A DNA stretch of 64,000 nt from Planctomycetia bacterium (GTDB lineage Bacteria > Planctomycetota > Planctomycetia > Pirellulales > Thermoguttaceae): positions 1-64,000 of the forward strand of contig JAUNBK010000001.1 in the NCBI GenBank assembly GCA_030527105.1. Direction: 5' to 3'. Made by a program: the position numbers and the translations under genes. Numbering within the stretch: the stretch's first letter is position 1; each line of letters starts with the position of its first letter. Below are positions 18,890 to 63,814 of the stretch, piece by piece. The notes below the pieces were generated by a model. That model did no database searches, was not told the DNA's origin, and saw only the letters and a program-made list of their open reading frames with translations.

Positions 18890-21223
18890 TCAGAGCAGTT
18901 TTCGCTTATCAGGCGGTGCGATAGCCCCTGTTAAACCAAAATCACTATCCCCGAAAGCCAACGCGGGGACGTAACTGGAGCCTTCGGTGTAGCTGGTGCC
19001 GCCTCTTCGGGCAGACTCTAACACGCTGGATTGTTGGTATCCGCCTAGCATTTTCGTACCCCAGTCCGGGTCGTTAGCCACGTGAGCCATTCCGCGAACC
19101 ATTTCCGGCTCAAAGGGTGGCGGGTCTTTGTGCGCATAAACATTTTTCACACCGTAGGCTTCCAGTTCTTTAACGACAGAGGGTCGTAATTTGGTTCCTA
19201 CCGTGTAATGCAACACCGGTTTTTCCAGGTATCGATTGGTCAGTTGCTTGGGCGCCCCCTGCATGAAACCTTTACGCGGTTCCCAGTTGTGCGTTACCAT
19301 GGCGTAGGGGAGTACGTCATCAGGTACATAGTCGCCTAATTCATCGGTAAGACGTACATAGCTGATAAGACCTCGGCTGAGTGCTTCCAGATTACGTCGA
19401 TGTACGGATTGCCCCGCGTTTCTTAGAGCGGCTTGAAATTGATTGACAAAAGCTCTTCGGCCTTCGCCAATTCCTTTATACTTCACTACCATGGCAGGAT
19501 TGGGAATGCCGTCGGAAATTACATCCCCGGCTTCTACAGTATCACCAGGTTTGACAAGCAGATCAATGTCCGTACCTTGTTGTTTTCCTACATAGTGACG
19601 CACTCCGTTAATATAAACATACTTTCCACCCTGTGGAGCGTCTTCAATTTTACCAATAGTTCCATCTTCCGTAGCATGAACCGCACCATGCTTGAATTTT
19701 TGAGGTACTTGGATCATCTGATTCAGATATTCAAAACCAGAGATGGTTTTTCCTGCTCCGACAACACCTCCCGTGTGTTTGGAATTGGAACAAATCATAC
19801 CGTTGGCGAGCACAAATAAATGGTCTGGATGATCTACCTCAATGTCCATTGTTTCCAGTTCGCCAACATACATCTGGTCTTGCCGTGTCAGAGCTTTTTG
19901 TAGTTTATCATCATGTAAATACAGAAGGTTATCAGACAGTAAACCTATGGGAATCTGCTTATTGGTATTGTCAAGTACTCCAAGGAATCTATGTTCCAAG
20001 GTAGAAGCTACTGTAATATAACTTCCTTCCGCTATTTTATAGGTGGTAGAGTAACAAGATTGTATGCCATTATGGAAAATGTTGACAACCTCTACCGGGA
20101 ACGTACCGCCCTCTGTGTTGGAGCCAAGTACATAATCCCCTATAGCAATATCTCTGAGTTTTTTGACAGTATTATCTGCCATTCGGACAGTCGTGTTTGG
20201 GTGCAGGCAGGAGATAGAACTTTGTGTGATAGGTTCCGTTACTGCTTGTACCGCGGATATGCCTACAAAATCTCCGATAGCCGGACGTGTTCCCGATTCC
20301 CGCAAACCAGCATCGTAAGAATAAATACCACCGTCTGTCGGTCCGCCTACGGTTACGGACCTGACCAGAATTCTTTTATGTCCTTTGGAATCCAGGTCTT
20401 GCAGTATTTTCGGTGTGAGTAACGTGTTTCTCGGATAACCACCTACAGGGTGTGCCAGATACGCACCCTCATTACCCTCATCCATAGTATCCGCCGGGTA
20501 GCCTCTTGGGTTTGTCTCGTCGTAAGGGTCTGGATCGTCGTCCGCAGTGACAACTTCCCTGTGAGCTATTTGCACCAATTGTTTGGCAAGAAAACCCGCG
20601 TCGGCAGTCGCTTTCTGCAAGTCAACACCGCCTTTGCGCGCACCGTAGGCACCTGCAATGTACTGCACAGGAGTCAAGCCCTTTCCATAACCGCGTGTAA
20701 TAGGTACAGGCACAGGACGGCCTTCCGGGTCTTCGTATAACAAGTCCGCGCCAACGATAGAGGTGTAGGGAACCACTTTATTTCCCAGGGTACCGGTGGC
20801 CTGATGATACAGAGGTGATTCTTTGCGCTCTTTGAGAATCTCTTGCTTGATAATAGGTTGGTATTTAAGGGTGTTTTGAACGATCTCTTTCTGTACTCTG
20901 GGGTCGTCGCTCAGAACTCTCTTTTGATACCATTTAGCGAGAATCTTCTCTGTTTCATCTTCAATACGGTTTCGGATAGCTTCCATCGCTTTGATTTCCG
21001 CCGCGTCGGATACCGAGAAAGACTGTCCGCCTGTAAGGTAAGCAGCCTCCGCGCCGAATTTAAGGATTTTGTGAGAAATTTCCTTAAATTTGTCAGGATG
21101 TTTCCGTGCCAACTCTGTCAAAACTTTGGATGTTGTTTTAGAGTCCCATACACGATAATCATCTCTCATATCATCCGGCAACATCTCGTTAAGTATCACA
21201 GAGCCTACCGTTGTTTCCGTCAC
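18890..21223 (-). CDS. RNA polymerase beta'-like protein with an in-frame mini-intein
   Basis: 777 residues, about 635 after splicing. It matches the C-terminal half of bacterial beta' (RpoC): residues 175-225 (ITRGYGKGLTPVQYIAGAYG, then ARKGG, then TADAGFLAKQLVQIA) correspond to the bridge-helix region. VRSVTVGGPTDGG (288-300) and GDFVGISAVQAVTEPITQ (317-334) lead into the trigger loop, which resumes as SKHTGG (481-486). GEGRRAFVNQFQAALRNAG (586-604) corresponds to the conserved VNEVQKVYR region, and LGGYQQSSVLESARRGG (726-742) to the late-beta' segment. The zinc-binding Cys of beta' are lost, and the NADFDGD catalytic barrel is not in this protein. It overlaps the portal gene by four bases. 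Likely one subunit of a split phage polymerase or a virion derivative. Confidence 0.88.
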   Translation of the reverse strand: MTETTVGSVILNEMLPDDMRDDYRVWDSKTTSKVLTELARKHPDKFKEISHKILKFGAEAAYLTGGQSFSVSDAAEIKAMEAIRNRIEDETEKILAKWYQKRVLSDDPRVQKEIVQNTLKYQPIIKQEILKERKESPLYHQATGTLGNKVVPYTSIVGADLLYEDPEGRPVPVPITRGYGKGLTPVQYIAGAYGARKGGVDLQKATADAGFLAKQLVQIAHREVVTADDDPDPYDETNPRGYPADTMDEGNEGAYLAHPVGGYPRNTLLTPKILQDLDSKGHKRILVRSVTVGGPTDGGIYSYDAGLRESGTRPAIGDFVGISAVQAVTEPITQSSISCLHPNTTVRMADNTVKKLRDIAIGDYVLGSNTEGGTFPVEVVNIFHNGIQSCYSTTYKIAEGSYITVASTLEHRFLGVLDNTNKQIPIGLLSDNLLYLHDDKLQKALTRQDQMYVGELETMDIEVDHPDHLFVLANGMICSNSKHTGGVVGAGKTISGFEYLNQMIQVPQKFKHGAVHATEDGTIGKIEDAPQGGKYVYINGVRHYVGKQQGTDIDLLVKPGDTVEAGDVISDGIPNPAMVVKYKGIGEGRRAFVNQFQAALRNAGQSVHRRNLEALSRGLISYVRLTDELGDYVPDDVLPYAMVTHNWEPRKGFMQGAPKQLTNRYLEKPVLHYTVGTKLRPSVVKELEAYGVKNVYAHKDPPPFEPEMVRGMAHVANDPDWGTKMLGGYQQSSVLESARRGGTSYTEGSSYVPALAFGDSDFGLTGAIAPPDKRKLL
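19784..20209 (-). other. Mini-intein (Hint domain, no endonuclease) in the beta'-like trigger loop
   Basis: 142 residues (339-480 of the host protein). Block A begins with Cys1 in CLHPNTTVRMADNTVKKLRD and GDYVLG. Block B carries T-x-x-H in STLEHRF. Blocks F and G are near VDHPDHLFVLANGMICSN, with the terminal Asn followed by Ser as +1 residue. The penultimate residue is Ser rather than the usual His. No DOD or HNH endonuclease is inserted. Removing it joins ITQSSIS to SKHTGG, the same length as the uninterrupted bacterial trigger-loop motif, which supports accurate splicing. Confidence 0.9.
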
Positions 21224-35939: not shown

Positions 35940-38882
35940 TTAAACTTGAATGTACAAATTAATAACATTCATTGCGTAAGGTACGGAAACAGCTAATACA
36001 ATAGTAAGCTGGTCCTTAAGCAGTATATCCTGATCAATGGATACGATGGTGTAATCGTTGAGCCTGCCGCCCAAGGATGCGGATGTTGCCACGATACACT
36101 TCTCGCAGTAGTCATGCACGTAATTTTTTACCAATGCAATAGTATTTGCGTTGATGTTATATACGCCGATAAACTGTTTAAGTCCCGATGACAGTTCCAG
36201 GGAAATCTGATCAAGATTGCGTGTAACCATCTCCTCTGTGTAATTCAGGTCGTCTACTTCGGTAGTCAGGCCGTGGAGTACAACAGGAGAGCCATCTCTG
36301 TTTCGACGCACCACCAGTACTCCATTCGCCGCCAACTGTTTGAGTTGTGACTCACTGAACATCGGAGAAGATCGTGTAAAACCGTCAAATCCTGTAATGA
36401 CGCTGTTGGTAAGACTCTGATGAGGCTCTACTCCAGATGCAAGACCGGCAATCGCTGCACATAACATTGTCCCAGGCATGGTAACAGTGCCTTCCGATAC
36501 CTGATCCGGCCATACCAGAGAAACACGTCGATTACGCATGGTTCCTGCAACGTCTGTAATATATTTAACCGCCTCGTCTTTGGTAAGAGTATGTCGGATA
36601 GCAATACGCTGTGGTGTAGCGTTTTCAGCTACTGTCTCCTGAATCGAAATAACATCACCACGTACAGAGGTTACTGTATATGCTTTGTCACTTCCCGCGA
36701 ATACGACAAGCGAATCTCCAGGCTGTACAGATGACAGGTCGACGTTGATTTTACCATCTACACGAGACGTGATATTAACCGTTCCATCACCACTGAACGT
36801 AGCCATTACCGGCTTGCCGTCTGTAGAGGTTGTCTGTCCAACACGTTCCACATAATCAGGACACGCTACCGACAGAAAACAACGTTTCCAGGCACACTCC
36901 TCTTCGTTGGAATCAGCGTCTACAGCCTGAATAGCTGCCGACAGCACGTCGATGTCCTGTGACATAGGAACAACCATATAAACGTTCGTATCGCCCTTTG
37001 CAGCGGATAACGCCTCTGTCCAGGCAGTCAGAGACTCCCCAACCACCGGAGTCCATGCTACATCCGCACCATTGGACATAGTAAGTGCTTTATATACACC
37101 ATACTTAACCGGGTTATCGGGAGACAATTCGCCGGGGATAGTCGCCAGATCGTCTGTGGAACTTACGATATTGATAGCACCGCTACCTTGTGCTGATAAT
37201 TCGTCATACAGCACAACAAGATTACCGTTCAACAAAGTAAGTGATTTGCCAAATGCTTCATTGTAAACAGTGACTCCTGGAGCCGTTGTAATGGTCAACT
37301 CTTCATTATTCAGAGTATAAAACGTATCAGGAACTGTAACTGTCTGCGCAACACACAATTCCACATTAAGAGATACAAGCGCGTCGGATGCTGCCGATCG
37401 CAAGGTTTGCGGCAATGAGTCTTTAAGTAACAGTCCATGCACTGCGCCATTTTTGCTGGCCTCTACTTGTACCATATAAGCCTGTCCTGGAAGCATTTCA
37501 TTCTCACTGAATGTAAGAACAAGTCCGTATTTGGTTGTGATGGAAGTAGAGGCAAGCGATACATTCTCCATATAATCCTCGCCCATAGCGCTGATAATGG
37601 ATACGACAGGTGCGTCGGACGGGTCGCCTACGGTACCTCCTTGTTCGCAACGAATAATATAAGTATCGTCAACTTCTCCACTGTAGGTACCTGAAGTTGT
37701 CAGCGATGCAGGAGTATAAGCCCCTGTGAGTCTATAAGCCCACGTGTCACCGATAGCGATATTATCATAATCGTCATTAGAAAAAGCACCCTGGAAATTA
37801 TTGGAAGTAATGGGAAATACCCAATCCGTTCCTTCGCCACGCACTGCCTGAACATAAGTTGCAGGGTTCGTACCGACAGTAACTGCAAGTTCGATGTTTT
37901 TACAGGCGGCTGTATTGGTTTTGCCCGTAACACGAATAGTGCAGATAGCGGACAATTCGCCATAATCCATAGGATTGTAGGTGCCGGTAATAGTCAGATT
38001 GGTTGCGGCGTCGTACAGGTCTGCCATGACACGTTCAGGATTTGCAGCGGCAAATGCAGAACTTTTAATCATAATAATATATTCCGCGTCGTCCAGAGTA
38101 GACAACTGTGCTTTAATGCCACACGTGCCTACCTGGAACGCGGTTTCGGTTGCAAGCGATGTAAATTCCGACGGATAACTATCCTGTCCACTTGCTGAAA
38201 TAACTTTATACTGACTGTCCTGTACAATTACCGTATAGACATCTTCTGCAAAATTTCCCGTGTAAGTACTTCCGGCAGCAGCACTGATAGCAGAGCCGCT
38301 TGGGAAGGTAGCTGTAGGATTGTTGGCATTGGTGGTACGAATACCGTAACCAATGTTGTCGTCAGTCATAGTGACAACATAATCCGCGACCGTGGTTTCA
38401 AAAGCAACATCACTGCATTCAGTAGCCCCTGCAATATTAGCGGCGTAGGCCTGCAAACGGACGGTATCACCAATCTGCACATCTCTTGTACCGAACATCG
38501 CATCGCGCGTATGACTGCCGTTAGTAGCTACGTTGATGTTGTTAAAAAACAACACGTTCGCAGTTCCTGGTACGTTGTAGACAAACTGTTCGGAACTATC
38601 CTCTGTAGGAGACGCAATTGCCGGGATTTCTGCGTAACGCAAGGTTGCGTTTTCCGCTACCACAGAAACAGAGTCTTTGTCCAGAACATTACCGGCAGTA
38701 AAGCTGGGATAGTTATAGGTACGAACATTATTCTCATACTCTCCTAGTACCGCACGATTGGAGTCTAATGTATGTTTAATAATGGCAGTTCCAACGATCC
38801 ACGAACGTAAAACAGCTTCTGTATTTGTAGGGTTAGTGGAAAGTTGCTGGTACACCCGTACACCCGGTGCTGTATATGGCAT
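35940..38882 (-). CDS. Contractile tail sheath protein
   Basis: 980 residues, larger than usual (about 400-700). The N-terminus (MPYTAPGVRVYQQLSTNPTN) is the standard sheath opening. The C-terminal domain has the canonical order: RRVSLVWPDQ, MLCAAIAGLASGVEPHQSLT, GFDGFTRSSPMFSESQLKQL, ANGVLVVRRNRDGSP and VTRNLDQISLEL. The extra length is a large beta-rich insertion (about 100-620) that probably faces the outside. It forms the contractile outer tail and makes this a myovirus. Confidence 0.92.
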   Translation of the reverse strand: MPYTAPGVRVYQQLSTNPTNTEAVLRSWIVGTAIIKHTLDSNRAVLGEYENNVRTYNYPSFTAGNVLDKDSVSVVAENATLRYAEIPAIASPTEDSSEQFVYNVPGTANVLFFNNINVATNGSHTRDAMFGTRDVQIGDTVRLQAYAANIAGATECSDVAFETTVADYVVTMTDDNIGYGIRTTNANNPTATFPSGSAISAAAGSTYTGNFAEDVYTVIVQDSQYKVISASGQDSYPSEFTSLATETAFQVGTCGIKAQLSTLDDAEYIIMIKSSAFAAANPERVMADLYDAATNLTITGTYNPMDYGELSAICTIRVTGKTNTAACKNIELAVTVGTNPATYVQAVRGEGTDWVFPITSNNFQGAFSNDDYDNIAIGDTWAYRLTGAYTPASLTTSGTYSGEVDDTYIIRCEQGGTVGDPSDAPVVSIISAMGEDYMENVSLASTSITTKYGLVLTFSENEMLPGQAYMVQVEASKNGAVHGLLLKDSLPQTLRSAASDALVSLNVELCVAQTVTVPDTFYTLNNEELTITTAPGVTVYNEAFGKSLTLLNGNLVVLYDELSAQGSGAINIVSSTDDLATIPGELSPDNPVKYGVYKALTMSNGADVAWTPVVGESLTAWTEALSAAKGDTNVYMVVPMSQDIDVLSAAIQAVDADSNEEECAWKRCFLSVACPDYVERVGQTTSTDGKPVMATFSGDGTVNITSRVDGKINVDLSSVQPGDSLVVFAGSDKAYTVTSVRGDVISIQETVAENATPQRIAIRHTLTKDEAVKYITDVAGTMRNRRVSLVWPDQVSEGTVTMPGTMLCAAIAGLASGVEPHQSLTNSVITGFDGFTRSSPMFSESQLKQLAANGVLVVRRNRDGSPVVLHGLTTEVDDLNYTEEMVTRNLDQISLELSSGLKQFIGVYNINANTIALVKNYVHDYCEKCIVATSASLGGRLNDYTIVSIDQDILLKDQLTIVLAVSVPYAMNVINLYIQV

Positions 38883-57567: not shown

Positions 57568-57987
57568 TTAAACAATAACTTTCTTCAACGTCTGAATGAG
57601 CTTGTTCAGCTCTCCTGGTTGTTTCAAGTCAAAGTCGTACTCGTTGTGCTGTCCCGGTATTACCAAGTCAAAGTCACTGTAAGCGGCTGTTTTATTCTCA
57701 AACATAAACCCAACTATAATTCGATTATCTCCGATACACCATTCTGCATAGACGTTCGCTTCGGCATAAGGATACAGCACAGGAGGTTGCGGCAATTCGC
57801 AAGCTATGGTTATAAGAATAGGTTTCAGCCAATCCAGGTCTTCATCCTTAAAAGCATCTCCTGTACCGGCATACCAACCTGGTTCCAGACGTCGAAACTC
57901 GTCTAACCTGGTGTAAATATCTACTACCTCTTGAAGCGATTTCTTCAGCAGGATCAACCCTTGATTTCGACTCGTACTCTTCCACAA
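57568..57987 (-). CDS. DUF-type protein, possibly the 3' part of a frameshifted gene
   Basis: 139 residues if read from a TTG at 57987; the convincing part begins near residue 22 (VDIYTRLDEFRRLEPGWYAG) and continues with FKDEDLDWLKPILITIACEL and YAEANVYAEWCIG. The 'LEPGW...G.G' opening recalls an uncharacterised bacterial family, but I cannot name it. Its 5' end overlaps the coiled-coil gene at 57848-58246 by 140 bases in another frame and has no ribosome site. See the finding on a possible frameshift. Confidence 0.5.
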   Translation of the reverse strand: MWKSTSRNQGLILLKKSLQEVVDIYTRLDEFRRLEPGWYAGTGDAFKDEDLDWLKPILITIACELPQPPVLYPYAEANVYAEWCIGDNRIIVGFMFENKTAAYSDFDLVIPGQHNEYDFDLKQPGELNKLIQTLKKVIV

Positions 57988-58246
57988 GTTCCGAAAGAAT
58001 TTCCAACTCCTCCAACTGCTCGTTTGTCAGTTTGTCATCACCGATCTTCAGTAAAGTGTCTATCTTCGAGAGAGCTTCTTCGTAGTCCTCTTGCGAGAGG
58101 ATTGATTTGTACTTGTCCAGTTTTTTCTCCGCTTCCGATATTTCTTGTACCAAAAATTCACGGTCCAATTTCAAGAACTCTGGCATTGTTTGCAACAGAT
58201 GCCTGTTGTGATTTACTATTGACATCCAAAAGTCTCTACGATTCAC
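57848..58246 (-). CDS. Coiled-coil accessory protein
   Basis: 132 residues from GTG 58246, with AAAAGGAG at ideal spacing. About residues 25-105 form charged helices (EAEKKLDKYKSILSQEDYEE). The last 27 residues turn abruptly basic and Cys/Tyr-containing (GSRYLHQVRRVSTSGTRLVC), as if read out of frame. The normal protein may therefore continue in the frame of the 57568-57987 gene. Confidence 0.55.
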   Translation of the reverse strand: MNRRDFWMSIVNHNRHLLQTMPEFLKLDREFLVQEISEAEKKLDKYKSILSQEDYEEALSKIDTLLKIGDDKLTNEQLEELEILSELVEEYESKSRVDPAEEIASRGSRYLHQVRRVSTSGTRLVCRYRRCF

Positions 58247-58278: not shown

Positions 58279-58317
58279 AATAAGTCTGTTACGCATAGTT
58301 CGCGTAACAGACTTATT
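58279..58317 (-). terminator. Strong terminator of the DUF4325-ATPase unit
   Basis: A perfect 16-base stem, AATAAGTCTGTTACGC / GCGTAACAGACTTATT, with a 7-base loop. On the minus strand it is followed by a T tract. It ends the unit whose last gene stops at 58326. Confidence 0.93.
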
Positions 58318-58325
58318 AACAAAAA

Positions 58326-59864
58326 TCACTCTTCTCCATACTCCTCAATCCGTTTCAGGGCTTCATTGAAAGAAGCGAATATCTTCTCAACACTATTTCC
58401 CTGGTGCTGATAGACGTACTGTCCACTTTTCGATACTGGCTCTGCCAGATAAAAATCAATGACGACCCCTTCCTTCTTCGCGATTTTCTGTAACGCGCTG
58501 ATCATATCGGGATTATGCGACGATATAAAGAAGCGTGTGCCACAGTGTTTGTGGAGTAAAACGATCATGCGCGCATACTCTACAATCCACACTGGATGTA
58601 GATTCATTTCAGGCTCGTCTAGAATTGTCAGTACATCCTCTCGAAAATACTCCTTACGAATCAATTGATAGATGGTTCCCATGAGTTTTTCGCCGTTGCT
58701 GGACTCATCCAGTCGAGATACGACAGGTGAGCCATGACGTTGAAAATGAAGTACACCCTCATTCTCCAAGGTATCACCGACAGTATTTCTCATTTTCAAA
58801 ATCAGGGGCTTATTGCGATCATACCCTTCCGAGTAGACTGATTGTAACGCTACTGAATAGGCGTGATCCCAGTTAGGAACCTTTTCGTAAGGAAGTTCTA
58901 TATACTTGTATAGAACACCTGGATTATTCAAATAAAGTGCATCTCTAATACTAGATGTCGGAATGCACTTATCCTCGTTGTCTATTAAATGCACAGTGTT
59001 GTCTTCGATAATATCAAATTTTCCTTCGACGTCTATACTCAATACGTCTTTAAGATATTCGTATAAATATTGCGTTCTTTTCCTTGAAAGCTCGTCCGTG
59101 TACGTGTGATACCAATGGTCGACACAGTTTTTTAGAGCGGACAACTTCTTATATGCGCTCTTAGGACATCCAACGCCCTCAAATAACTGCTTCCAGGCAA
59201 CTTTCAACTGTTTGCGAAACGCTTTGTTTTTACGTATTTCATCTGACTGCATGTAATCCAACCACTCTTCGAGATATTTTTTTATCTCCCACAAAGTCGT
59301 CATTTCCCGATAATGCCAGCCAATGACATCTTCGTAGTTGTCTCTGCAATATTCCATAAGCTCTACAACTGGGGACAACTTTCTAAGGCATTTAACACAT
59401 AGCAATTGAGCCACCGTATCTGGCATACGGAAAGTATGGTAAAGCAATTGCGATAGAATACTCTTACCGCAACCGTTTTCACCGGTAACAACCGTAATTC
59501 CGTTCAGCGCAATGTTCGCTTCTTTGATGGAATAAAGGTCTTTGACCACTAAATTCATTGAATGGTACATTGGTATCTCCTCTTTCTTTGTACATTCACA
59601 TTCCACTACATAATCTATAAGTTCTTTATCGAATTTATCTGTATTTGTAAATGTTATCTTTTCATCTAACTGTTCTATAAACCCATTAAGTATTAACGGT
59701 GCAAGAGCTACCCTTATAAAATAAGGAGTAAGCATCTCAACTCCCTCAAAGTCTAATTCTACCGATTCGCCTTTCTTTATATAAGGCAATATTTTATTGT
59801 ACAGAGCAACGCCTGTCTCTTCTTTGATACAAATTGTATCTATCTCACTTACTTTGATTTTCAT
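58326..59864 (-). CDS. DUF4325 (STAS-like) domain fused to an AAA/ABC-type ATPase
   Basis: 512 residues. Residues 1-90 match the DUF4325/STAS-like fold (GESVELDFEGVEMLTPYFIR). Residues about 100-510 form an OLD/RecF/SMC-like ATPase: Walker A VTGENGCGKS, signature SSNGEKLMG, Walker B LTILDEPEMNLHP and SSHNPDM at the switch. Between the lobes lies a helical insertion (about 150-290). Such ATPases usually sense or process nucleic acids and are common in anti-phage systems. Its start overlaps the coiled-coil gene at 59861 by four bases, making a two-gene unit. The second DUF4325 gene at 63022 is a relative of its N-terminus. Confidence 0.8.
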   Translation of the reverse strand: MKIKVSEIDTICIKEETGVALYNKILPYIKKGESVELDFEGVEMLTPYFIRVALAPLILNGFIEQLDEKITFTNTDKFDKELIDYVVECECTKKEEIPMYHSMNLVVKDLYSIKEANIALNGITVVTGENGCGKSILSQLLYHTFRMPDTVAQLLCVKCLRKLSPVVELMEYCRDNYEDVIGWHYREMTTLWEIKKYLEEWLDYMQSDEIRKNKAFRKQLKVAWKQLFEGVGCPKSAYKKLSALKNCVDHWYHTYTDELSRKRTQYLYEYLKDVLSIDVEGKFDIIEDNTVHLIDNEDKCIPTSSIRDALYLNNPGVLYKYIELPYEKVPNWDHAYSVALQSVYSEGYDRNKPLILKMRNTVGDTLENEGVLHFQRHGSPVVSRLDESSNGEKLMGTIYQLIRKEYFREDVLTILDEPEMNLHPVWIVEYARMIVLLHKHCGTRFFISSHNPDMISALQKIAKKEGVVIDFYLAEPVSKSGQYVYQHQGNSVEKIFASFNEALKRIEEYGEE

Positions 59865-60385
59865 AGTCCTCTCCTTCTACGATACTTAGCATTACGTCTT
59901 TTCCGCCTGTTCCTGGTTAAGAGTGTTGCTGCCAAGGCTAGCATCTTATCCTGGTCGTGCTTGAGACTAGCTATCGTGTTCTGTGTCTCCTTGCTTGTTT
60001 GTGCTATAAGCTCTTCTATCTTATCCTGGTCGTGCTTGAGACTAGCTATCGTGTTCTGCGGCTCCTTGCCTGTTTGTGCTATAAGCTCTTCTATCTCCTC
60101 TGTTTCTTGATAGATTTGTTCCTTGTATCTGTCCTTAATTTTTGGTAAAGTATTAGACAACCACCACAGTTCCTTTGTAATCTTATTGACTCTAGCCTTT
60201 ACTTCTAAGACCTCGTCCTCTGTATGATAGATGTCAGGCTCGCTAATTATATGTTGATAGCCGAACAACGTATCATACACAAGACTCACCAAGTTTTCAA
60301 GTGTATCTGCCTGTTCCGCACGTTGTGCATATAATTGTATCGTATCCACCTTTTCCATTACATCTTCCACTATTTCCGCTGCCAT
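59861..60385 (-). CDS. Coiled-coil partner protein with a tandem 25-residue repeat
   Basis: 174 residues from ATG 60385 (GAGGAG eight bases upstream; a GTG one codon earlier is also possible). Helical throughout; contains two nearly identical 25-residue units, IEELIAQTGKEPQNTIASLK and IEELIAQTSKETQNTIASLK, each followed by HDQDK. The C-terminus is strongly basic (LLTRNRRKRRNAKYRRRRGL). It is coupled to the DUF4325-ATPase gene by a four-base overlap. It may be its partner or sensor. Confidence 0.7.
   Translation of the reverse strand: MAAEIVEDVMEKVDTIQLYAQRAEQADTLENLVSLVYDTLFGYQHIISEPDIYHTEDEVLEVKARVNKITKELWWLSNTLPKIKDRYKEQIYQETEEIEELIAQTGKEPQNTIASLKHDQDKIEELIAQTSKETQNTIASLKHDQDKMLALAATLLTRNRRKRRNAKYRRRRGL
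59943..60092. repeat. 75-base tandem duplication inside the coiled-coil gene
   Basis: Two copies, 59943-60017 and 60018-60092, differ at only a few bases. They encode the two 25-residue units and keep the frame, so this is a recent in-frame duplication. Confidence 0.9.
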
Positions 60386-60484
60386 CACTGCTACTCCTCT
60401 TCATTTTATTGTTTGTGTAATACCTAAACCCGCTAACTAATTTTGAATTCTACTTATTTCATGGTGCCTCTCCTTCTTCTTGTG

Positions 60485-60530: not shown

Positions 60531-60620
60531 GACATGCCATTCATAAGTAAAAATACAATGATTCCTACATACTATATGCCACGAACGGTCAGGGAAATAA
60601 AGATAGAAGAAAAGTCAAAA

Positions 60621-60741
60621 TGGCGGATAACGAGATTACGTCGTTACAATAATTTCTGTTGCAGAATATCAATAATAGTCTTGAAATTACGACACCTCGT
60701 TATCATCCATGGCGGATAATAAAACGACAGATGGCGGATAA
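60621..60741. repeat. TGGCGGATAA repeats bounding an imperfect inverted repeat
   Basis: TGGCGGATAA occurs at 60621-60630, 60710-60719 and 60732-60741. Between the first two, GGATAACGAG ... CTCGTTATC-atcc forms an imperfect inverted repeat about 95 bases across. This lies in a 385-base gap (60386-60770) with no supported gene. It resembles a MITE-like or iteron element. An open frame of 61 residues here has no ribosome site. Confidence 0.55.
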
Positions 60742-60770: not shown

Positions 60771-61301
60771 TTATGGAGTTGTCGCTTTATTACCATTCCA
60801 TAGAAACTCTGGGTTTACTTCTCGCAATAGTTGTGGTAACGTTAGTGTCCGAATATTTAATTTTCGACATATATTAGGAATTTTGATACGCTTTAAGCAA
60901 CGCTCTTCAAAGGTTTCTTCTGTCACAATATCTAAATGATTTGCTAAGGCATACGCAATGAGATAAGAGTCTGCACAATTCTCAAATTCTGTGATAGCTC
61001 TTTGAGTGTATTTTTTCCCTTGAGATGTGTGATTATATACAACTTGTAAGACCGTACGTAGAGGGTCGACTATATTATCAGTAGTCTTAGTGGAGACTTC
61101 CTTGATTTGATTTTTCCATTCTTCAATACCGTCATAGTGTTTAAGTTCCTCCAAGACTTTATCAATTGTTTGAAATTGTTTAATTTTGTGTTCGTGCAAC
61201 ATCCACTCCCAATACCCAGGGAATACTGATTTAGGATGCCAAAGGTTCCATGATTGGATATAGATATTGGTGTCTAGAAGGTAACTTTTCAAGGAACTCA
61301 T
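60771..61301 (-). CDS. PIN-like (DUF4411-type) toxin candidate
   Basis: 176 residues. PIN-fold signs: SYLLDTNIYI with the first Asp (about 9), a central charged helix with IDKVLEELKHYD, and CADSYLIAYALANHLDIVTEE (about 110-130) with the later acidic residues. DUF4411 PIN nucleases form toxin-antitoxin pairs with ImmA/IrrE-like partners, and such a gene lies directly upstream with a four-base overlap. It would cleave RNA when released. Confidence 0.78.
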   Translation of the reverse strand: MSSLKSYLLDTNIYIQSWNLWHPKSVFPGYWEWMLHEHKIKQFQTIDKVLEELKHYDGIEEWKNQIKEVSTKTTDNIVDPLRTVLQVVYNHTSQGKKYTQRAITEFENCADSYLIAYALANHLDIVTEETFEERCLKRIKIPNICRKLNIRTLTLPQLLREVNPEFLWNGNKATTP

Positions 61302-62416
61302 GATATACGCATCCCAGGCATACAGCGATTTGCAAACTCTTCAAATGTTTTTCCGTGCATTCCAACTAGATTACAGGCATCTCTATAAAGCGTCTTACCG
61401 CTCTGCGCAGAGGCGATAACCGACATTACAAAATTCATCGAAAGATTACTTTTTCGAGTATTGTAGTAAGTTGGGTTGCCTTTTTGCTTTTTTTGATTTG
61501 TTTCAAATTTTTTCTGCTGGCTTCTAAAAAAAGCCCAAAATTCGTCAGAAGGTATAAGTCCACAGTCCCACGCACGTCTTGCAATTACAATCGTACTTAC
61601 TTTGAATACATGCGACAGGTGGCCTATATCACTATTGGTATCCCAGGCTTTCCGAAATAGTTCTTCTGGAACGAGAAGTTCTGCGGCTACATGATTCGCA
61701 AAATCTTCTTTAGCAAAATCAAAAACACCCTCTGTCCCACTCCAGAGATGGGCTATTTCATGAGCCAGTGTAAACATTCGGGCATTTCTGGCATCTGCGG
61801 AATTTATGAAAATAAGCGGTGCATAGGTATCCGACATGACGAAACCGCGAAACTCTTCCGGGTTAAATCGTTTTCGTGCCGTTGTATCCAGCCCGCTTTC
61901 CTGAAAGAGCAATACTCCCGCCTCCTCAACAACGTCACGGAGGTGTTCATAAGCCTTCTCCCAGTTGGCAAATGATTGCGTCCAGCCCTCTTTCAAATTC
62001 AAATCCTGTAGGATACGCTTTGTCGCCTCTAGGGGATCGGTAATTAACTTTAGTGAACCAACAAACGGAAGAGGCTCCGCTCCCTCTGAAAGAAGATAAT
62101 TATGCATCCATTCCTGACGAACAGACATAATATGAATTATCTCACGCAAATTCAAACTTGGTTCGGAGAGTTCCCGATCTGTCACTGTACGGCAATCTGG
62201 TATCGGAAGGGGTTCCTCTTCTGGAATCTTGCCAAGAAGTAGACTTGAGAAGGGAACCCGTAACGTTTGTGCAAAATTTTGAAGTTTTATAAAGGTTGTC
62301 TGTGCGGGTTCATTGGAAACCCAGGGGAAACGTGTATAGATTGCGTCCTCCGACAGGTCCGAATAGCGGATCGCCCATTGAAGTACCTCTGGTTTAACAC
62401 TAATATAATGGGTCAT
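61298..62416 (-). CDS. XRE-HTH/ImmA-IrrE metallopeptidase antitoxin
   Basis: 372 residues from ATG 62416, with GGAAA upstream; a TTG at 62428 would extend it. Residues 1-70 form an HTH-like domain (TFIKLQNFAQTLRVPFSSLL). Residues about 170-290 form the zinc peptidase domain, with NARMFTLAHEIAHLW carrying the H-E-x-x-H. It overlaps the PIN gene by four bases, the known order of antitoxin then toxin in this type of module. In a phage genome it may stabilise the prophage or block other phages. Confidence 0.82.
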   Translation of the reverse strand: MTHYISVKPEVLQWAIRYSDLSEDAIYTRFPWVSNEPAQTTFIKLQNFAQTLRVPFSSLLLGKIPEEEPLPIPDCRTVTDRELSEPSLNLREIIHIMSVRQEWMHNYLLSEGAEPLPFVGSLKLITDPLEATKRILQDLNLKEGWTQSFANWEKAYEHLRDVVEEAGVLLFQESGLDTTARKRFNPEEFRGFVMSDTYAPLIFINSADARNARMFTLAHEIAHLWSGTEGVFDFAKEDFANHVAAELLVPEELFRKAWDTNSDIGHLSHVFKVSTIVIARRAWDCGLIPSDEFWAFFRSQQKKFETNQKKQKGNPTYYNTRKSNLSMNFVMSVIASAQSGKTLYRDACNLVGMHGKTFEEFANRCMPGMRIS

Positions 62417-62536
62417 GCGCGTTTCCAAATAGATAAAACAATCTCTATTTTATATAAACTTAGATGGAAAGTCAATAGATTTTCCAAAAAAACTTTTTAT
62501 TTTTATAGAATTCTAGGATGAGATGAAATCTTCTTT

Positions 62537-62691: not shown

Positions 62692-62720
62692 TTGACACGT
62701 ATAGAGTGTTAGCTTATAAT
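62692..62720 (+). promoter_or_regulatory. Consensus sigma-70 promoter
   Basis: TTGACA (62692-62697), a 17-base spacer and TATAAT (62715-62720). All twelve box positions match consensus. It drives the ATPase remnant/DUF4325/Panacea unit. Confidence 0.85.
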
Positions 62721-62758
62721 AAAAGGATATTAAGTCATAGCAAGACAGGGAAACAGAA

Positions 62759-63025
62759 GTGAAAGTTACGCAATTACAATTAGTTGATTTTCGGAATGCG
62801 CCTTCCGTTTACTTTGGGGATGATCTTGCCTTACATCCACGAATGAACATTTTTTATGGCATGAATGGTTCTGGCAAAACAACGATTCTGGACGCTTTGG
62901 CAATTTTGCTGTCCTGGCAAAGCAATCGGCGGTTTACGCCATCTGCTTCGGGACGTCTTTTGCCAATTGCAAGCATTAACAATCGCGGGAATTTCTGCAA
63001 GATTCCAAGAGAAATGATGTCATGA
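62759..63025 (+). pseudogene. Truncated AAA/RecF-like ATPase
   Basis: 88 residues from GTG 62759. Residues 1-62 are the start of an AAA_23/OLD-like ATPase: TQLQLVDFRNAPSVYFGDDL and Walker A IFYGMNGSGKTTILDALAIL. The signature, Walker B and switch regions are absent. A short C-terminal tail (KIPREMMS) overlaps the next ATG by four bases, so an internal deletion probably fused the two ends. Unlikely to hydrolyse ATP usefully. Confidence 0.75.
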
Positions 63026-63353
63026 ATATCAAAGTAAAAGATGTAGTAGGTGATTATTGCATTACATGGAGTGATGGCGACGCCTTATATGGTTTGATTC
63101 GGGATAGTCTGAATAGGAACGAGCGTGTAGTATTGGATTTTTTAGGCATTAAATTGTTTGCCTCTCCTTTTTTTAACTTTTCTATAGGAAAATTATTTAA
63201 CGACTTTTCTAAAGAATATATTTTGGAAAACCACAGTTAGATAACTTGAGTGCATTGGGACAATCCATTGTTGATCAGGTTATAGTCAATTCTTCCAGAT
63301 TGAGTAAGACAATAGATTATCAGAAGATTTTTGATGAGATATTAAATTCTTAG
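63022..63353 (+). pseudogene. DUF4325 (STAS-like) gene with a -1 frameshift
   Basis: The first 71 codons (63022-63240) encode VVLDFLGIKLFASPFFNFSI, GKLFNDFS and related DUF4325 features. At about 63234 the frame must shift by -1 to continue as QLDNLSALGQSIVDQVIVNS and end at 63353 with FDEILNS, giving a full-length protein of about 109 residues. The N-terminal half resembles the start of the ATPase at 58326-59864. It may be a mutation, a sequencing error or a programmed shift. Confidence 0.7.
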
Positions 63354-63361
63354 GCATTATT

Positions 63362-63814
63362 ATGGAAAAAGTATACGATATAGCCAGGTGGTTTTTAAGT
63401 CAGGATTCCATGACACATAAAAAGCTACAGAAATTGTGCTATTACGCACAGGCATGGCATTGCGCACTTCATGACGGTACTCCATTGTTTGAAGACGATA
63501 TTCAAGTGTGGGTACATGGTCCTGTTGTCGTGTCGCTTTATTCCAAATATGCAGATTACAGGTGGAATCCCATCCCTAAACAGGAATTTGATGAATCTGT
63601 TTTGGCAGAGAATACTCTTGAACTACTGCATTCTGTATATAACACTTACGGAGACTTACAGGGATGCCAACTGGAAAATCTAACGCAGGCGGAAGACCCA
63701 TGGAAAATGGCTCGCGAAGACTTGAAACCATGGGAAGTGTGCTATAAAGTTATTCCCTGCTCTGACATGCAAGATTACTATGGGAAGAAATACCAACAAG
63801 AACAGGGAAAGTAA
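63362..63814 (+). CDS. Panacea-domain (DUF4065) antitoxin-like protein
   Basis: 150 residues. It contains the family core KKLQKLCYYAQAWHCALHDG (about 20-39), then FEDDIQVWVHGPVVVSLYSKY. The Panacea domain is the shared antitoxin part of many toxin-antitoxin pairs, including SocA-like systems. Here no clear toxin follows inside the window. It follows the decayed ATPase-DUF4325 pair by eight bases and shares their strong promoter. Weak ribosome site. Confidence 0.82.
   Translation: MEKVYDIARWFLSQDSMTHKKLQKLCYYAQAWHCALHDGTPLFEDDIQVWVHGPVVVSLYSKYADYRWNPIPKQEFDESVLAENTLELLHSVYNTYGDLQGCQLENLTQAEDPWKMAREDLKPWEVCYKVIPCSDMQDYYGKKYQQEQGK

Follow-up and report, generated by a model that had tools for sequence, protein, structure and literature searches.

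The two-gene unit described here lies on the minus strand of a 64,000-nucleotide stretch of DNA from a Planctomycetia bacterium (referred to as the window), which forms the first part of a 115,958-base contig in a genome of 4.1 Mb. Two ORFs were found where the original prediction had placed them, and they are listed here together with the features discussed below.

58279-58317, minus strand: intrinsic terminator, perfect 16-bp stem followed by a T tract
58326-59864, minus strand: fusion of STAS (DUF4325) and ABC/SMC-type ATPase, 512 aa, 181 bits against a family HMM built without it
58335-59558, minus strand: ATPase domain, fusion residues 103-510
58608-58619, minus strand: end of Walker B, DEPE, fusion residues 416-419 (from sequence)
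59460-59483, minus strand: Walker A GENGCGKS, fusion residues 128-135 (from sequence)
59571-59864, minus strand: STAS/DUF4325 domain, fusion residues 1-98, Pro (LTPYF) at the VapS Ser48 position
59861-60388, minus strand: coiled-coil protein of 175 aa with basic tail, without relatives in the searches
59943-60092, minus strand: tandem duplication of 75 nt (25 residues), copies 96% identical
60620-60741, no strand assigned: ATGGCGGATAA in three exact copies and nowhere else on the contig, candidate operator
62759-63025, plus strand: N-terminal fragment of a PtuA-like ATPase, 88 aa, coupled by ATGA to the second DUF4325, related context
63022-63240, plus strand: second DUF4325/VapS-like ORF, 72 aa, Ser kept, without the C-terminal part, outside the operon

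The coiled-coil gene lies upstream, with possible starts at GTG 60388 and ATG 60385, and shares the predicted ATGA overlap at 59861-59864 with the fusion gene downstream; both ORFs are favoured over the five other frames by the codon usage of the prophage genes. Two further features claimed for the coiled-coil protein could be confirmed, namely the 25-residue duplication, whose tandem copies differ by 3 mismatches, and the basic tail, with 11 K/R among the last 20 residues. The terminator following the fusion gene is as strong as had been stated (-23 kcal/mol, z -5.7 on folding). Past it, at 57568-58246 on the minus strand, two ORFs overlap in different frames and perhaps constitute one frameshifted gene. 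The claim of an own promoter did not hold up: the best sigma-70-like match upstream of the operon reaches 9/12, the same as in shuffled sequence. ATGGCGGATAA occurs in its three copies about 230-350 bases upstream of the operon and is absent from the rest of the 116-kb contig, from which we infer a candidate regulatory site. Neither Rfam nor folding revealed an RNA element in the 5' region of the operon. Upstream of the operon (60388-60480, minus strand) there is a two-codon ORF (ATG AAA TAA) with a good ribosome-binding site in front of it.

The operon is located in an element of approximately 9.2-72 kb with a GC content of 0.35-0.47, situated between host-like genes of GC 0.50-0.53. Since this low-GC element carries an excisionase-like gene and matches to a major head protein, a tail sheath and a baseplate wedge, it is a prophage, whether intact or not, and the operon belongs to its cargo, in agreement with the predicted location in phage accessory DNA. 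Only weak partial matches to sister prophages were found in the host family. On the minus strand of the element, whose length is only about 63 kb, a 777-aa protein (18890-21223) matches RNA polymerase Rpb1 domain 5 (3.9e-15), and in a 980-aa protein (35940-38882) the sheath match is limited to the last 210 residues, behind a long N-terminal extension. The cargo region contains a macro-domain protein, a toxin-antitoxin-like pair at 60771-62428 (minus strand) in which a DUF4411 PIN-like gene is coupled to an IrrE/M78 gene and not to the fusion operon, and a Panacea gene at 63362, after the second DUF4325 ORF. The PtuA-like fragment and the truncated VapS-like DUF4325 are preceded by a 12/12 consensus promoter (TTGACA-17-TATAAT), the whole occupying 62692-63240 on the plus strand. 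Just past the window lies an AbiL-like pair, AbiLi (E 6e-68) and RloB/AbiLii (contig 65432-67451; L020 9433-11452). The cassette can therefore not be called isolated, as had been proposed; sitting among AbiL, PIN/IrrE and Panacea genes, it is part of a conflict-gene cluster.

In the fusion protein, the Pfam order is DUF4325 followed by AAA_21/AAA_15, and the claimed fusion of DUF4325 to an intact ATPase is well founded: DUF4325 is matched at residues 18-77 with 42.5 bits (cut-off 23), and the ATPase retains its catalytic residues, i.e. Walker A, the signature G-x-K, DEPE and the H-switch His, while the nearly invariant family columns in which it differs are non-catalytic. The HMM match is full length (model 1-418), and the best relative shows 32% identity over residues 102-510. 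Related ATPases were collected at 86 loci, 80 from genome contigs and 6 from viral contigs, and at 78 of them the ATPase gene is immediately followed by a small gene belonging to one and the same family, a count which describes rather than tests the family, since the HMM was partly trained on those loci. The D, E-x-K and K residues of this partner protein are 97-98% conserved, and PD-(D/E)xK nucleases take the top rows for its AlphaFold model (pLDDT 92) with modest Z-scores of 4.5-6.0, so that motifs and fold match together suggest a putative PD-(D/E)xK-like nuclease. At two loci among the closest relatives (L054 and L058), the HMM missed ORFs that lie downstream and carry a similar ExK motif. 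Judged by its sequence, the ATPase half belongs to this widespread two-gene family, putatively acting in phage defence. The best PADLOC model is HEC-02A; we found nothing in the literature on the function of HEC-02, nor a name for the pair of ATPase and nuclease-like gene. Structural matches of the fusion ATPase comprise an SMC head (Z 15.5), MlaF (Z 13.8) and PtuA (Z 13.4). On another Thermoguttaceae contig (L057, 1-2089), shortened ATPases of the same kind stand in tandem, with DEPE changed to DSPD or ELPE.

The nuclease-like partner (D..ExK..K) of the fusion ATPase is absent from the contig and from the whole genome, while the identical search, applied as a positive control to a genome from the host's taxonomic family (G049), does detect one. 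Conversely, a STAS domain was found at none of the 86 related ATPase loci. The only solved sequence relative of the fusion STAS domain is Escherichia VapS (PDB 9z7o, E 5e-4), and the stand-alone DUF4325 proteins of the sampled genomes reside in kinase-STAS-PIN-like operons, i.e. VapKSC, for which a model has been put forward in which VapS is phosphorylated at Ser48 and the toxin thereby freed (PMC13373217). Counted along the 9z7o alignment with its 18-residue tag, Ser48 falls in FASPFF. All aligned stand-alone DUF4325 proteins have Ser at this position, as does the window's second DUF4325; in the fusion it is Pro, and a conserved Asn and Gly nearby are also altered. Because of this exchange, phospho-switching at the Ser48-equivalent residue is excluded, and the domain likely has a different role. 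The predicted structure of the STAS part is of low confidence (pLDDT about 55-70), too poor for a structure search. A VapS-like domain that cannot be phosphorylated could also serve counter-defence, binding VapC toxins or VapK kinases so that VapKSC stays off, which would fit both the VapS-like character of the domain and the abolished VapKSC protection in VapS S48A (PMC13373217), given Pro in place of Ser in the fusion. We consider this highly improbable, since the VapS C-terminal region, which is required for VapC inhibition (PMC13373217), is replaced by the ATPase, and the host lacks any further DUF4325 gene.

Within the host phylum, 46 of the 392 sampled genomes contain DUF4325, the window's genome being one of them. 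For the phyla to which a Bacteroidaceae, a Lachnospiraceae and a gammaproteobacterial genome belong, the counts are 65/395, 12/289 and 25/284, respectively. Across the samples from these four phyla, 1,360 genomes in total, no second fusion of DUF4325 with an ABC ATPase was detected; the DUF4325 frames are mostly about 100-200 aa long and the longer ones were read in part (those of 340-380 aa incompletely). Other long DUF4325 frames, reaching 533 aa, were considered as candidates for the same fusion; those checked were GHKL-type or unrelated, one of them radical-SAM-like, and had no ABC motifs. No DUF4325 relative was confirmed in viral contigs. When searched with the coiled-coil protein, collections of phages, plasmids and viral contigs, as well as 296 genomes from the host's order, yielded only the query itself, and a DNA search of phages gave no match. 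Conservation of the gene pair in other genomes, on which the original prediction was to stand or fall, is thus not seen within the searched collections for either the fusion or the coiled-coil gene, whereas the ATPase family is conserved.

These observations bear on the main rival to a functional unit, a mosaic or decaying leftover in which a recombined VapS remnant and an orphaned ATPase without nuclease persist as open but now functionless ORFs. The missing nuclease with its successful positive control, the lost STAS phospho-site residues, the occurrence of the gene pair nowhere else and the truncated ATPase/DUF4325 pair 3 kb away (62759-63240), evidence that breakage and shuffling of such pieces occur here, all point in this direction, while the intactness and coupling of both ORFs, their element-like codon usage, the retained ATPase catalytic residues and a clean terminator argue against it. 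We regard the leftover as doubtful, yet not far behind the reading of a rebuilt defence ATPase. The coupling of two genes, the toxin-antitoxin genes in the neighbourhood and the AriA models and chains matched by the ATPase would also suit a toxin-antitoxin- or PARIS-like pair, in which the ATPase complex keeps the coiled-coil protein inactive until it is freed on infection. However, no toxin fold or family was recognised in the coiled coil, and the resemblance to AriA is one shared by ATPases in general, rendering this explanation rather unlikely.

We favour, at a probability of about 0.42, a rebuilt conflict-system (defence) ATPase that is carried by the prophage and would exclude competing phages. 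This reading is based on the full-length family match, the nuclease-like partner at most related loci, the retained catalytic residues, the SMC-head and PtuA fold matches, the cargo neighbours, the ATGA coupling and the shared terminator; against it stand the single copy, with no second genome carrying the fusion or the pair, the lack of a recognisable effector and the low confidence of the STAS part of the structure model. The ATPase core belongs to a family whose usual partner is a PD-(D/E)xK-like nuclease, and this nuclease is gone; a VapS-type STAS domain without phospho-acceptor is fused ahead of the core, and a coiled-coil gene whose product ends in a very basic tail is translationally coupled upstream. 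The ATPase may dimerise on ATP like SMC, RecF and PtuA heads, as its fold matches suggest. The STAS domain could act as a structural or regulatory clamp in cis instead of a phosphorylation switch, a step suggested by the MlaF match, the exchange of Ser for Pro and the precedent of the STAS protein MlaB, which binds and stabilises the MlaF ATPase in trans (PMC7367683). The coiled-coil protein might bind the ATPase complex and, via its basic tail, nucleic acid, as effector or tether, and competing phages would be excluded from the lysogen. The prediction of a defence-type ATPase in phage accessory DNA is supported by family membership and by the AbiL, PIN/IrrE and Panacea context; that of the pair as a conserved defence module is not, given the unconserved pair and the absent family nuclease. 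A rearranged defence cassette, possibly a functional one, is plausible. That the unit represents a new architecture, in which a STAS domain devoid of its phospho-switch gates an SMC-like ATPase in cis and a basic coiled coil replaces the nuclease as effector, is unlikely and put forward very tentatively.

Here the antiphage toolkit of STAS switches (CapS/VapS) and that of SMC-like conflict ATPases come together in one prophage protein, and the finding draws attention to the widespread ATPase and PD-(D/E)xK-like pair. If the rebuilt unit works, conflict ATPases of this family would be able to swap effectors.

Compared with known systems, the fusion shares a VapS-type STAS domain with the antiphage toxin-antitoxin system VapKSC (2026; PMC13373217), from which it differs by Pro at the phospho-Ser position, by the fusion of STAS to an ATPase and by a coiled-coil gene and a terminator as neighbours in place of the GHKL kinase VapK and the PIN toxin VapC. 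An ABC/SMC-like ATPase fold is shared with PtuA of Septu PtuAB and of retron Ec78, but neither neighbour belongs to the HNH family (PtuB) and no reverse transcriptase was seen. Like PARIS AriA, a RecF/SMC-like ATPase stands with a small partner gene; the similarity is limited to ATPase motifs, with no TOPRIM/DUF4435 AriB in the neighbours. MlaFB (PMC7367683) likewise associates a STAS domain with an ABC ATPase, there a transporter ATPase with STAS in trans, an analogy that does not claim close sequence relation. From the ATPase and PD-(D/E)xK-like family (e.g. L054 from Chitinophagales, L055 from Bacteroidaceae and L111 from the planctomycete Im510_bin130) the unit is set apart by the lack of the nuclease partner, the fused STAS domain and a partner gene that lies upstream and encodes a coiled coil, whereas the full-length ATPase and its catalytic residues are common to both.
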